A DNA stretch of 64,000 nt from positions 2,464,914 to 2,528,913 of the forward strand of contig BAOK01000001.1 of NCBI GenBank assembly GCA_000509225.1, given 5' to 3'. The notes below the pieces were generated by a model. It had not been told where the DNA came from. It did no database searches and saw only the letters and a list, made by a program, of their open reading frames with translations. This stretch comes from Parvibaculaceae bacterium Mf 1.05b.01. GTDB lineage: Bacteria > Pseudomonadota > Alphaproteobacteria > Parvibaculales > Parvibaculaceae. Shown here piece by piece: positions 32,721 to 42,034 of the stretch; position 1 is the first letter of the stretch, and each line of letters starts with the position of its first letter. The translations under genes were made by a program, and so were the position numbers.

Positions 32721-32858
32721 ATATCAGGGTTCGCGAGGGAATTGGCAAGAATTGGATTAGAAATCACCCCCCATTCTTCGGGGTTTTGCATTTAGCGGGG
32801 GGCCATGCCACCTTGCCGCCATCAAAATCAGAGAATCCCCGACATTGGAGGCAGGTCC

Positions 32859-33800
32859 ATGGCACTGGAAGCCAATCCCAACATTTTTGCCAATAATCCC
32901 CTCGACCGCGCGGGTCACTTCCGCACGAATCCCGATTGGATTGCTGAGAAGCTGGCTGATACCGCCAGCCTTGCCGTGCCTCTATGGAATCTGAAGCCGC
33001 TTGTGCTGCCAGAAGAGCAGCCCGGTGCTGGAAAAGACGTGGGCTGGCTGCCGGTCAATATGGTTCAGTCCGCAGCTCCCGGCGGCACGACGGTCTTCCT
33101 TGGCATTAATCGTCGGGGCAAATCGCTCTTCGCCCATGATGTGTCCAGTCTTAAAGATCCAGAGGGAGAGGGCCCTTTCAAGGGCATGGGCGGATTTGAA
33201 GATCTGCGCGCTGTGGGCATGATGGGCGAACTGCCCAACACAGAACTTGCGATCCTCGCGCAAGCCAAAGCGATGATCGACTGGCATGCCCGCCACGGCC
33301 ATTGCGCCGTTTGTGGCGCAGCGACCAATGTTGCTGAAGCCGGCTACAAGCGCGCCTGCCCGTCCTGCAATGCTGAGCATTTCCCACGGACAGACCCGGT
33401 CGTCATCATGTTGGCAACTTACGGCGACAAGGCCTTTCTTGGGCGTCAGAAGATCTTCCCGAAGGGCATGTATTCCGCGGCCGCTGGTTTTGTAGAGCCT
33501 GGCGAGAGCATAGAAGAAGCTGTCGCCCGCGAACTGGATGAGGAAGCCAAGATTGACGTTAAGTCAGTGCGCTACCACTCCACCCAGCCCTGGCCTTTCC
33601 CGTCCAGTCTGATGATCGGCTGCATTGCGGAAGCGACCAGCGAGGATTTCGAGATTGACGGAATTGAACTGTCAGAAGGTCGCTGGTTCACACGAGACGA
33701 GCTGGCAGCGGCTCTTGACGGCAAAGCGGACGGGTTCTTTGTGCCGCCTGCCTTTGCTATCGCCCATCATCTGGTGAAAGCGTTCGTTGAGAAATGGTGA
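32859..33800 (+). CDS. nudC: NAD(+) diphosphatase / NAD-decapping Nudix hydrolase
   Basis: 313 residues. NudC cleaves NADH/NAD+ and removes NAD caps from RNA. A zinc ribbon (HCAVCGAAT ... RACPSC) precedes the Nudix domain. The Nudix box is GFVEPGESIEEAVARELDEE, followed by AKI, and the family tag TQPWPFPSS (consensus SQPWPFPxS) is present. Catalytic Glu residues of the RE-x-x-EE core are intact. The ATG at 32859 has GGAGG upstream. Its last 44 bases overlap the end of a convergent membrane-protein gene. Confidence 0.93.
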   Translation: MALEANPNIFANNPLDRAGHFRTNPDWIAEKLADTASLAVPLWNLKPLVLPEEQPGAGKDVGWLPVNMVQSAAPGGTTVFLGINRRGKSLFAHDVSSLKDPEGEGPFKGMGGFEDLRAVGMMGELPNTELAILAQAKAMIDWHARHGHCAVCGAATNVAEAGYKRACPSCNAEHFPRTDPVVIMLATYGDKAFLGRQKIFPKGMYSAAAGFVEPGESIEEAVARELDEEAKIDVKSVRYHSTQPWPFPSSLMIGCIAEATSEDFEIDGIELSEGRWFTRDELAAALDGKADGFFVPPAFAIAHHLVKAFVEKW

Positions 33801-34439
33801 GGCGCCACTGTCTACGTACGGAGACATAACTCGCGTATAAAACGAATAACGCTCCGATGAATTCCAGCGCCTCCTCTATCATCTCAGAACGGTTGATTCC
33901 GTAATTAGTCGTGCCGTCTGTGAAAATATGTTTGTCAGCCATGTCGGCAACGATGTACAGGACAGCGCCCGCAAAGAACCACCCGCCTGCAATGCTAAGT
34001 AACCATTTCACGCCGGCATGCCAGGTAGCGCCTGCGCCCCTCACAGCGACGTACATCAGTCCCACCCAAAACATCAGCAAGAGAATATAAGGAATACGGT
34101 AGGGAGTGAGACTTCCAAGATAGGGCTCCAGGCTGGTGCCACGGACATCCACTTCGCGAGCCAGCAAGCTCATGCAGAATAGTACCAATCCGCACATGAC
34201 CGACCTATGTGCCTTGTCATCTGCCATGGCTGCAGTAGCAAAAAAACAATGCCACTTGCGAGGAAGAGGAAGTTCTGGCCAGTCTCAAACAGACCATTCT
34301 CCTGAAACGAGTCTATGTCGCCAAAGTAAAAATAGATGACATAGCAAGCACCAACAAACAGTGAGGCCATAAATGTATCGCTGATCCGAGCTTTGGTCAG
34401 CAAGGGTGTTGAGCGGCCAGATGTCGACGGATTAACCAA
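33757..34439 (-). pseudogene. Membrane protein gene split by a frameshift at a T7 run
   Basis: Two overlapping frames together look like one membrane protein of about 227 residues. The first part (34439 to 34170, TTG start with GGAG upstream) gives ASLFVGACYVIYFYFG, then an ENGLFETGQNFLFLASGIVF stretch, and then runs out of frame. The second part (ATG at 34227 to 33757) gives CGLVLFCMSLLAREVDVRG and three more helices. At the minus-strand T7 (plus A-run 34240-34246) one added T, or a -1 slip, would join them as GIVF-(F/L)-ATAAMADDK. This could be a real inactivating indel, a sequencing error, or programmed frameshifting. The 3' end overlaps nudC. The family is not recognised with certainty. 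Confidence 0.65.
34239..34246 (-). other. Possible -1 slippery heptamer T TTT TTG
   Basis: In the upstream reading frame the codons are GTT TTT TTG, so the mRNA reads T-TTT-TTG, which fits the X-XXY-YYZ pattern of -1 frameshift sites. A -1 slip would enter the downstream frame with no intervening stop. Whether a stimulating structure follows was not determined. Confidence 0.4.
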
Positions 34440-34589
34440 ACCAACTCCATAATGATTTCGCGAAGGAATGTTCTGATATCATATTTGTCAATTGGATGAC
34501 GCAGGCAAAGAGATACACATTCTGCATTGAGTTGAGAAGCCAACAAGAAGACAAGAAGATGTTATCTCGCCGCGCGCCGCCGCTCTTGA

Positions 34590-35009
34590 CTATTTCATTG
34601 CAAGGATAAGTTTCGGCACAAACCAGACCGGCCAAGCGGCAATAATAATGTTGGGTATCCACCAACTTGGATCGAAATCACTAAGGATCACCCAATAGCA
34701 TATCGCCATGAAACCAGCGCAAAATGTGAGCGCTGCAGATACTAATGCGTAGCCGAACCAGCGATTGTCCCCCTTGGTGAACAATCGTGCTGCATAAATG
34801 CCGAGCGCAGCGAAAATCACATCTAGGGGAAAGAACGACCAGTTCCAGGCGACCACGCGCGGGTCGTAATAGTCCTTGAACAAATAGCCTTCCGGGATTG
34901 AGAAAATACCCAGAGCTACCAGCGTAGTGACGAACCAATAGGTCAGAAGGAGCCAGTCAGTGCCCAGCATCCAGGGGCGCATTCTCCGAAAAACGTCATC
35001 TGATCTCAC
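34590..35009 (-). CDS. DUF5360 (YvaD-like) membrane protein
   Basis: 139 residues, four helices (about 15-37, 49-68, 78-103, 113-133). WLLLTYWFVTTLVALG, then SFFPLDVIFAALGIYAA, and a Trp-rich end WWIPNIIIAAWPVWFVPKLIL match the DUF5360 pattern of short membrane proteins. GTG at 35009 is chosen because GGAG precedes it; longer upstream frames run into the operator and the divergent gene. The local base composition is AT-richer than the neighbours. Probably repressed by the divergent TetR regulator. Confidence 0.75.
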   Translation of the reverse strand: MRSDDVFRRMRPWMLGTDWLLLTYWFVTTLVALGIFSIPEGYLFKDYYDPRVVAWNWSFFPLDVIFAALGIYAARLFTKGDNRWFGYALVSAALTFCAGFMAICYWVILSDFDPSWWIPNIIIAAWPVWFVPKLILAMK

Positions 35010-35020
35010 AACACACTCCA

Positions 35021-35050
35021 CATTACGTTTGTTACGTAACGATAGTAATG
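35021..35050. promoter_or_regulatory. Palindromic operator between DUF5360 and tetR genes
   Basis: A 10-bp perfect palindrome GTTACGTAAC (35031-35040) lies at the centre of a wider imperfect palindrome with outer arms CATTAC (35021-35026) and GTAATG (35045-35050). It lies in the 83-base gap between two divergent genes, the expected place for TetR-family autoregulation. Confidence 0.65.
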
Positions 35051-35092
35051 TTAAAATGTTCGCATACGCAACCACCATCTCAGTTGGGATTG

Positions 35093-35665
35093 ATGCCAAA
35101 GAAAATTGACCCCAATGAACGCCGACGCGAGTTGGTTCTGGCCAGTTGGGACGTCCTATGTGCAGATGGACTGGAAGGTGTTTCACTGCGACGGGTCGCC
35201 GATGCCGCAAACTGCACAACTGGTCGGATTGCGCATTATTTTGAGGGCCGCGACCAACTCTTGATTGCGTCGCTGCGCATGGCCAATGCGCAAGCTGCTG
35301 AGCGAATGCAAGCTATCGCAGAGAGTGAAGCTGACTCTTTAAAACGTCTTCGAGCGATCCTGATGGAGAGCCTGCCGCTGGACACACGCCGGCTTAAAGA
35401 ATGGCAGGTGTGGCTGAGTTTCTGGGCGGCGAGCATCGGGCACAAGGACCTCGCGGTAGAAAACCAGAGACGCTACGCTGAATGGCGCGCGGCGCTCCAG
35501 TCTGCCCTGCGCGCCCTGACGTCAGAAAGTGACGCCACCATCCTAGCGGATCGTCTTGTTACGCTGATCGATGGTCTGGGGATTGGTGTGACCCTTGACC
35601 CGAGCAAAGAAAAACGGCGACGCGCGGAAGCCGAAGTGGATGCCTTCCTGAACAGTCTCAGATAG
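35093..35665 (+). CDS. TetR/AcrR family regulator
   Basis: 190 residues. The N-terminal helix-turn-helix spans about residues 10-55 (VSLRRVADAANCTTGRIAHYFEGRDQLL, key turn TTGRIAHYF). The C-terminal half is a helical ligand-binding and dimer domain (WQVWLSFWAAS; BetI-like in style). The ATG at 35093 is used. It is divergent from DUF5360, with a palindromic operator between, so it likely represses itself and that gene. It ends 3 bases from the convergent pheA. Confidence 0.87.
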   Translation: MPKKIDPNERRRELVLASWDVLCADGLEGVSLRRVADAANCTTGRIAHYFEGRDQLLIASLRMANAQAAERMQAIAESEADSLKRLRAILMESLPLDTRRLKEWQVWLSFWAASIGHKDLAVENQRRYAEWRAALQSALRALTSESDATILADRLVTLIDGLGIGVTLDPSKEKRRRAEAEVDAFLNSLR

Positions 35666-38348: not shown

Positions 38349-40160
38349 TTGGCGTGGATTGGACGTTTTGCAGGTGCGGGTTTGGCTCTGGCGGTGGGCA
38401 TCGGCGCCGCCTTTGCAGAGAATGCTGAGCGGCACGGTCTCTCCCTTTTCGGATCGCTCAAATATCCAGCTGGTTTCGAACGATTTGACTATGTGAACCC
38501 GGACGCACCCAAAGGCGGCACGCTGCGTTATGCCAGCATTGGCAGTTTTGACAGCCTCAACCCCTTTATTGTCAAAGGTCGGGCTGCTGCGGGTGTCTCG
38601 ACGTTCCTCTACGACACTCTGATGGCCAGTTCTTTGGACGAGGCCGCCAGCGAGTATGGGCTTTTGGCAGAAAGTGTATCGCACCCGGACGACTATTCTT
38701 CCGTCACCTTCAAACTGCGCCCGAACGCAAAGTGGCACGATGGCAAGCGGGTGACACCAGAAGACGTCATTTGGTCTCTTGAAACGCTGACCACGAACAT
38801 GCCTTTCTATAACGCCTATTACGCAGATGTGGAGAGCGTCGAGATGCTCTCCCCTCTTGAAGTGCGTTTCAACTTCTCCGTCTCGGGCAATCGCGAACTG
38901 CCACAGATCGTTGGGCAACTACCGGTCCTGCCGAAACATTATTGGGAGACGCGCGACTTTAACGAGACCACGCTGGAGCCTCCCCTTGGCAGTGGCCCTT
39001 ACAGGGTGGCCAAAGTTGATGCGCCGACCAGCATCACCTTTGAACGGGTGCCCGACTATTGGGCGGCTGATCTCAATGTAAATATCGGCGCCCACAACTT
39101 TGATGAAATTCGGTTTACCTATTTCGGTGACAGCACCATTGCTCTTGAAGCTTTTAAGGGCGGTCAGATTGACGTTCGTCTCGAGAATTCCGCGAAGAAC
39201 TGGGCCACAGCTTATGACTTCCCCGCGGCCCGCGACGGGCTCGTGCGCAAGCAGGAGCTTTACACATCAAACCCTGAACCCATGCAGGGCTTTGCCATGA
39301 ACCTGCGTCGCGACAAGTTTACTGACGTCCGTGTTCGCGAGGCAATCGGCCTTGCCTTCGACTTCGAGTGGGCCAACAAAACACTCTTCTATGGTCAGTA
39401 CACACGCACCGACAGTTATTTCGAAAATTCAGAACTTGCATCGAGCGACCTGCCCGAAGGCGCAGAGCTCGCCCTTCTTGAACCTTTTCGCGATCAACTA
39501 CCCGCCTCTCTCTTCACAGAGGCGTTCAGCGTGCCGACGACCGATGGGAGCGGCGACAATCGGCGCAACCTGCGCGCCGCCACGAAGCTGCTTCAAGATG
39601 CCGGATGGTCGGTCAATGAAGAGGGGGTTCTGGTCAATAATGAGAGCGGCGGGACGTTGGATATTGAGTTCTTGCTGGTTTCGCCAACCTTTGAACGGGT
39701 CGTGCAACCCTACATACAGGCACTGAAAAAACTCGGCATCAATGGGAGCATTCGCATTGTCGACACATCCCAATATCAGAACCGGTTGGACAGTTTCGAT
39801 TTTGACATGATCATTCACAGCGCCGGGCAATCGCTCTCACCGGGCAATGAGCAACGGGAATTCTGGGGCTGTGAAGCTGCTAACCGCAATGGCAGCCGCA
39901 ACGTGATCGGTATTTGCGATCCTGTTGTCGAAGCGCTGATTGATGAGATCATTCTCGCGACGGACCGGGAAGCTCTTGTCGTCGCAAGCCACGCGCTTGA
40001 CCGTGTACTTCTCTGGCGCCACTACATCGTGCCGCAGTGGCATATCCCCTTCACCCGCGCTGCGGTCTGGTCTCATATCGCGCATCCCGATCCGACGCCT
40101 GCGTTCAATCCAGGCTTCCCCACTATCTGGTGGCATACAGGCGATGAGGCCCAGAACTGA
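38349..40160 (+). CDS. yejA: Peptide ABC transporter substrate-binding protein 1 (YejA-like)
   Basis: 603-residue family 5 periplasmic binding protein. Signal peptide of about 23 residues ends near AAFA. DYVNPDAPKGGTLRYASIGSFDSLNPF is the YejA-type start (the PDAPKGG block is typical). Start choice: TTG at 38349 follows AGGGAG; another TTG at 38325 is possible. First gene of yejA-yejA2-yejB-yejE-yejF. YejA binds oligopeptides such as microcin C in E. coli; the ligand here is not known. Its stop overlaps the second yejA start (TGATG). Confidence 0.9.
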   Translation: MAWIGRFAGAGLALAVGIGAAFAENAERHGLSLFGSLKYPAGFERFDYVNPDAPKGGTLRYASIGSFDSLNPFIVKGRAAAGVSTFLYDTLMASSLDEAASEYGLLAESVSHPDDYSSVTFKLRPNAKWHDGKRVTPEDVIWSLETLTTNMPFYNAYYADVESVEMLSPLEVRFNFSVSGNRELPQIVGQLPVLPKHYWETRDFNETTLEPPLGSGPYRVAKVDAPTSITFERVPDYWAADLNVNIGAHNFDEIRFTYFGDSTIALEAFKGGQIDVRLENSAKNWATAYDFPAARDGLVRKQELYTSNPEPMQGFAMNLRRDKFTDVRVREAIGLAFDFEWANKTLFYGQYTRTDSYFENSELASSDLPEGAELALLEPFRDQLPASLFTEAFSVPTTDGSGDNRRNLRAATKLLQDAGWSVNEEGVLVNNESGGTLDIEFLLVSPTFERVVQPYIQALKKLGINGSIRIVDTSQYQNRLDSFDFDMIIHSAGQSLSPGNEQREFWGCEAANRNGSRNVIGICDPVVEALIDEIILATDREALVVASHALDRVLLWRHYIVPQWHIPFTRAAVWSHIAHPDPTPAFNPGFPTIWWHTGDEAQN

Positions 40161-42034
40161 TGCGCCGCATTGGGGCGGGCGCCGCGATCGCAGCAATGAG
40201 CTTTGCCATCTTCTCGGGCAGTGCCATTGCAGAGCCACGCCATGGCTTGTCAATATTTGGAGACCTTCTGTATGAGGAGGATTTTCCGCATTTCTCCTAT
40301 GTGAATCCTGACGCACCAAAGGGCGGTGCTTTCAGCCAGATTGGCCCAAGCTGGATTCTCAACCAATCGCCGCTCACCTTTGACAGCCTCAACAGCTACA
40401 TTCTTAAAGGGAATGGGGCGATGGGGGCGGAGCTTACCTTCGATACGCTGATGACGCGCTCAGGAGATGAACCTGATGCGGTCTATGGCCTTGTGGCCAA
40501 AACGGCGGACATGGCAGACGATGGCAACAGCATTATCTTTGAGCTGCACCCGGAAGCGCGTTTCCATGATGGAAGCCCCCTCACAGCAGAAGACGCGGCC
40601 TTCTCCCTCATGCTCCTAAAGGAAAAGGGGCACCCTTTGATCTCGCTCACCATCCGCGAGATGGCGGGCGCGGAGGCGCTCGGTCCACATACACTTAAAG
40701 TTACCTTCACCGGCAACCAGACCCGCGACCTGGCGCTGCTCATCACAGGGCTGCCTATTTTCTCCAAGGCCTATTACACGACCCATGATTTCGAAAAGAC
40801 GACGCTCGACGCCCCCTTGGGGAGCGGTCCCTACAGGGTGAAAGAGTATGAGCAAGGCCGATACATTACCTATGAGCGGGTCGACAACTATTGGGCGCGT
40901 GACCTCAATGTGAATGTTGGGCGTTGGAACTTCGATACGGTGCGCTATGAGTTCTACCGGGACCGCACGGCGCAATTCGAAGCGTTTAAGGCCGGAGAAT
41001 ATCTGCTGCGCGAAGAGTTCACGTCCAAAGTCTGGGCGACGGAGTATAACTTCCCTGCCGTCGAAGATGGGCGTGTCGCCCTTCTGACCATGCAGGACGA
41101 AACGCCGTCTGGCGCTCAGGGCTGGTTCCTGAATACGCGCCGAGATCAGTTTGCAGACGTCCGGGTTCGCGAGGCACTGGGCCTTGCTTTCGACTTTGAG
41201 TGGACCAATCGCAATCATTTCTTTGGCCTCTACCAACGCAGCGGCAGCTATTTCGAAAACTCGGAGATGCGGGCCGAAGGCCTGCCTGGTCCTGGAGAAT
41301 TGGAACTGCTCGAGCCCTATCGGGATCAACTCCCGGCGCGGGTGTTTGACGACGCCATCGAACCACCGGTATCGGACGGCTCGGGCAAAGACCGACGCCT
41401 CCTCTTACAGGCGAGTAAATTGCTCGACGCGGCGGGCTGGACCATTCAGGACGGCAAAAGACGAAATGCTGCAGGCGACGTGCTCACTGTGGAGTTTCTC
41501 AACGACGCACCCACTTTTGAGCGGGTGATTTCGGCGTTTCAAGCCAACCTCACCCAGCTTGGCATTGAGACCAGCATCAAACCTGTCAATTCGGCCGAGT
41601 ATCAGGAACGGGTGAAAGTCTTCGACTTTGATGTGATGTCGCGTCGTTTTTCCATATCCGCAACGCCGGGTGTCGAAATCAGCAACTATTGGAGCTCGGA
41701 ATCGGCAGAGACTCCGGGCAGCTTCAACCTGTCAGGCATCAGCGATCCTGTCATTGACGCTTTGATGGATAAAATCATCAATGCTGAGAGCCGCGAAGAA
41801 CAGGTCCAGGCGGCGCGCGCCATCGACCGGGTATTGCGCGCGGGCTTTTACTGGGTGCCCCACTGGTACAAGGCGTCTCATACACTCGCCTTCTGGGACG
41901 TGTTTGCCCGGCCAGACAAGGCGCCCCGCTACTCACGCGGAAGCGCCATCACAGACAAGCGGGGTATTCTCGACACCTGGTGGATTGATCCGGCAAAGGC
42001 CCAGAACACCCCACAGGCGAACCAATCTGAGTGA
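40160..42034 (+). CDS. yejA: Peptide ABC transporter substrate-binding protein 2 (YejA-like)
   Basis: 624 residues, a paralogue of the preceding gene: same mature start AEPRHGLSIFGDL (versus ENAERHGLSLFGSL), SYVNPDAPKGGAF, ATEYNFPA and VREALGLAFDFEWTN blocks. Signal peptide of about 24 residues. The pair is a tandem duplication that has clearly diverged, so the two may bind different peptides through one permease. Overlaps the first by one base. Confidence 0.9.
   Translation: MRRIGAGAAIAAMSFAIFSGSAIAEPRHGLSIFGDLLYEEDFPHFSYVNPDAPKGGAFSQIGPSWILNQSPLTFDSLNSYILKGNGAMGAELTFDTLMTRSGDEPDAVYGLVAKTADMADDGNSIIFELHPEARFHDGSPLTAEDAAFSLMLLKEKGHPLISLTIREMAGAEALGPHTLKVTFTGNQTRDLALLITGLPIFSKAYYTTHDFEKTTLDAPLGSGPYRVKEYEQGRYITYERVDNYWARDLNVNVGRWNFDTVRYEFYRDRTAQFEAFKAGEYLLREEFTSKVWATEYNFPAVEDGRVALLTMQDETPSGAQGWFLNTRRDQFADVRVREALGLAFDFEWTNRNHFFGLYQRSGSYFENSEMRAEGLPGPGELELLEPYRDQLPARVFDDAIEPPVSDGSGKDRRLLLQASKLLDAAGWTIQDGKRRNAAGDVLTVEFLNDAPTFERVISAFQANLTQLGIETSIKPVNSAEYQERVKVFDFDVMSRRFSISATPGVEISNYWSSESAETPGSFNLSGISDPVIDALMDKIINAESREEQVQAARAIDRVLRAGFYWVPHWYKASHTLAFWDVFARPDKAPRYSRGSAITDKRGILDTWWIDPAKAQNTPQANQSE

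Follow-up and report, generated by a model that had tools for sequence, protein, structure and literature searches.

The window analysed here, a stretch of 64,000 nucleotides from the genome of Parvibaculaceae bacterium Mf 1.05b.01, contains a small membrane-protein gene whose reading frame changes by one base at a run of seven T residues (T7). We consider it probable that this is a frame change in a formerly intact accessory membrane gene, most likely caused by replication slippage that shortened the run. Comparison with homologous sequences indicates an ordinary frame break, and translational recoding is not supported.

Reading frames at the T7 run

The gene is encoded on the minus strand, which reads ...GGCATTGTTTTTTTGCTACTG... 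at the junction. The frame changes at the T7 run (A7 on the plus strand) at positions 34240-34246, where the frame-0 codons are GTT TTT TTG. The frame-0 open reading frame (ORF; minus strand, 34170..34439) begins at a TTG start and encodes 89 aa, with its last ~23 codons, past the T7 run, lying out of the family's frame. Its continuation in the -1 frame (minus strand, 33757..34245) is homologous to the rest of the family and contains no stops over 34245..33760 (162 codons), the stop codon being at 33757-33759; the other two frames, counted from the T7 run, stop after 25 and 9 codons. An ATG-started ORF within the -1 frame covers 33757..34227 and encodes 156 aa. At its 3′ end the broken gene overlaps nudC (plus strand, 32805..33800) tail to tail over 33757..33800 in the ORF listing.

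Read through the run, the two parts form a joined protein of 227 aa, and the alignments indicate that the join is more than chance, because homologues match both sides in one frame. This bears out a sequence-only reading of the same DNA, which had described the T7 run at 34246-34240 with an open -1 frame behind it, as the sequence and ORF listing confirm, and had predicted a joined protein of about 227 residues, the length of the read-through product that homologues match across the join. Its description of good membrane helices in each frame stands for one part: in a Kyte-Doolittle scan (19-residue window, cut-offs 1.6 and 1.4) the -1 part has three helices and the 89-aa frame-0 ORF has none at cut-off 1.6. 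The joined protein has six helices at cut-off 1.4.

Homologues and the recoding alternatives

We searched the read-through protein at E <= 0.001 in 146 genomes, one of them the window's own, and identified homologues in 12 of the 145 other genomes, namely four of six genus-mates and eight members of other genera of the family. Every homologue is single-frame through the aligned junction; the G001 match carries one stop, near the C-terminal tail and away from the break. Aligned codons show the heptamer at the join in none of the 12, the relatives having GTG TTC TAT, GCC TTC TAT, GCT TTC TTC, GCG TTT TTC and similar codons there. T runs at this point reach 2 bases in seven homologues, 3 in another two, 4 in a single one and 5 in the remaining two, all too short to form the heptamer. 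The sequence-only reading, which weighed recoding against a homopolymer indel and chose neither, had expected an indel to reveal itself by relatives with eight T residues and an intact ORF: the intact ORF is present throughout, but the run of eight is not. For recoding it had expected relatives to keep T7 and both frames, which none does. The uniform single frame and the missing heptamer thus support the indel and not recoding. In a DNA search of 61 genomes, mostly the nudC end of the query was matched, and the gene itself gave only a weak match in G004.

A C-terminal tail (ending LSPD..) is common to the window, G003, G004 and G006, and we considered and rejected it as a conserved motif: since its last part is antisense to the nudC end and the G001 stop falls just before it, the likeness of the tail is probably a by-product of nudC.

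The joined window protein matched no Pfam family above the cut-off (best DUF423, at E 0.096 and 13.4 bits where the cut-off is 25) and had no NCBIfam match at 0.05. In set A1, whose 12 members are the joined window protein and all the relatives except G006, Pfam and NCBIfam searches matched DUF998 in three members (best E 0.0026) and DUF5963 (E 0.0072), DUF2427 (0.035) and RhaT (0.032) in single members. An AlphaFold2 model of the G004 homologue (L031), built on three alignment rows with a mean pLDDT of 56.6, is all-helical with six long helices, and the alignment places the break within helix 2 of this low-confidence model. Sequence and model suggest, at most, a small, helical, polytopic membrane protein of no named family.

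Programmed -1 ribosomal frameshifting at T_TTT_TTG, which would yield a full-length and a short protein, is in our judgement very improbable, and we rejected it as the leading reading for its unconserved site and weak or absent stimulators. Known systems of this kind are dnaX and IS1/IS3-type heptamers. The window gene shares with these systems (PMC4066793, in the parts drawn on here) a heptamer of the form X XXY YYZ in the right phase, T TTT TTG within GTT TTT TTG. Unlike them, it has a site kept in no homologue, no clear upstream stimulator and only a weak downstream fold. Inspection by eye of the bases preceding the run revealed no GGAG- or AGGAG-like Shine-Dalgarno element. A 55-nt stretch beginning six bases past the run has a folding z of -1.93, matched by 11 of 200 shuffles, but the two other downstream stretches gave z = -0.36 (80 nt) and 0.77 (140 nt); with one of three stretches mildly stable, the downstream sequence folds at an ordinary level or slightly better than chance. 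The motif itself is unremarkable, since 7 of the 12 homologues have in-phase X_XXZ_ZZN heptamers at other places in their stop-to-stop frames. In the same parts of PMC4066793, U_UU.U_UU.G is among the most efficient motifs in a eukaryotic system, and the efficient E. coli list has H_HH.U_UU.Y; the window motif is named neither among the efficient E. coli motifs nor in the candidate-motif table there, with the proviso that E. coli may not represent this alphaproteobacterium.

We give just as little credence to recoding confined to one lineage, in which T7 would have been gained in a fast-evolving membrane gene of the window's lineage and slippage at a newly born site would make a one-to-two-helix and a six-helix product. 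If the gene were recoded in this way, its frameshift site would be a new one absent from every relative examined, and nothing here requires that. An internal start at the ATG at 34227 is not favoured either: no purine-rich ribosome-binding site was seen by eye upstream, and each of the 12 homologues consists of a single ORF.

Least probable of all is non-programmed slippage of RNA polymerase or the ribosome on T7, which would give a little full-length protein from a leaky allele. In the portion of PMC1088944 consulted, some broken ORFs that carry nine A or T in a row are argued to yield protein nonetheless via transcriptional slippage, and a large proportion of genomes evidently avoid slippage-prone runs once these reach nine nucleotides. 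The window gene resembles these "pseudo pseudogenes" in having a homopolymer at the disruption point and a preserved downstream frame; it differs from those covered in that portion in a run of seven instead of nine and in being known from sequence alone.

A frame break in the gene or in its assembly

The best explanation of the locus is a recent one-base contraction of the homopolymer that either took place in the DNA or exists only in the assembly. In the former case, which we favour, a formerly intact gene encoding ~227 aa, probably with six helices, would have lost one base as replication slippage shortened the homopolymer, a direction and mechanism of change that we infer. As assembled, the product would start with ~65 native residues, which span helix 1 and the greater part of helix 2, and go on for ~23 out-of-frame residues to a stop, and the gene is presumably null. 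The window gene is like frameshift pseudogenes and homopolymer indels in accessory genes in its one-base homopolymer shift, in having halves homologous to single ORFs, and in being dispensable. Unlike them, it shows one lesion only, with the rest of the frame open and conserved, which points to a recent break or an assembly error.

Homopolymers are a classic site of assembly and base-calling errors, and an error of this sort, with the gene intact in the organism, is an unlikely alternative. The sequence beyond the join appears conserved, both in invariant columns and in the proportions of nonsynonymous and synonymous differences (pN < pS), as would be expected if the gene were intact. The window contains seven 7-base runs in total and no longer homopolymer, but extrapolation from the numbers of 5-, 6- and 7-base runs predicts about one run of eight, so the absence carries little weight. 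Against such an error, five of the six other 7-base runs (11291, 16415, 23043, 32433 and 51304) lie inside stretches that align single-frame to G003 ORFs; the sixth (59779) is covered by none of the listed G003 matches.

The wider comparison with G003, in which 60 kb matches the window from 5.3 to 64 kb, points the same way. Of 58 dominant G003 ORFs of at least 100 aa, 57 were matched in the window, 54 of them single-frame and three flagged; we judged two of the three to be upstream start extensions, which would leave the broken gene as the sole frame break. Given the five single-frame runs and this single break, systematic homopolymer error is unlikely, but a single miscall may still explain the break. 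Comparison with G004 flagged 4 of 39 ORFs (the broken gene and three others), and comparison with G002 flagged 2 of 16 ORFs with a match, with five more lacking one; from their coordinates, we read the other flagged ORFs in both genomes as start extensions or antisense shadow ORFs.

Divergence and genomic setting of the gene

Of the 19 alignment columns of the gene that do not vary among the 12 relatives, the window keeps 17, with 4 of 4 ahead of the join and 13 of 15 beyond it; of those that do not vary among the four genus relatives, it keeps 11 of 14 ahead of the join and 35 of 53 beyond. Leaving each genus relative out in turn gave 17/17 invariant columns kept for G004, G001 and G006 and 17/18 for G003, so that the window copy, at 17/19, appears slightly less faithful than its relatives. 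In pairwise comparisons with each of the four genus relatives, both halves show pN lower than pS, a result taken as a sign only, with pS near saturation. The good preservation of the downstream part leaves three readings: a recent break, continued production of the full-length protein, or a break that does not exist in the organism.

The short first part shares 36-57% identity with the genus relatives, and the second part 43-49%. Against G003 the broken gene reaches only 42-44%, compared with 84-97% for its neighbours (nudC, the neighbouring membrane gene, pheA and kdsB, the last two at 97%) and 74.5% for the regulator. Among the five genus rows of the tree, the window's end branch is the longest, at 0.61 (others 0.16-0.54), and the window row is not placed firmly: approximately unbiased (AU) tests rejected neither grouping with G003 and G001 (p-AU 0.278) nor grouping with G004 (p-AU 0.188). 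Such divergence would fit relaxed constraint, or else an old allele that had already diverged; the frame break would then have come recently.

The order of identities also differs along the locus. The broken gene (33760-34439) is closest to G004, whereas pheA is closer to G003 (97%) than to G004 (90%). This mismatch may reflect fast evolution or allele replacement.

The gene belongs to a block at 33757-35665, between nudC and pheA, that comprises two membrane genes and a TetR-like regulator. The second membrane gene (minus strand, 34590..35219) and the regulator (plus strand, 35048..35665) were labelled from reading the sequence. Further along the window, at 38349-42031, lie two tandem genes of ~600-620 codons whose products look ~43-45% alike, and the relatives' product of each matches the other too; this pair is likely an old tandem duplication.

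The accessory block that holds the broken gene is missing in two of the six genus-mates. In G005, nudC and pheA are side by side; in G002, AraC-like and homocysteine-methyltransferase-like ORFs (labels from reading the translations) occupy the interval, and neither membrane gene has a match in that genome. The locus is of use mostly as a negative control, a slippery-looking heptamer of one genome that is absent at that place from all 12 homologues. Because of the adjacency of nudC and pheA in G005 and the other ORFs between them in G002, the gene is dispensable in the genus, and the gene content of these genomes indicates that the nudC-pheA interval is a spot of turnover within a single genus.
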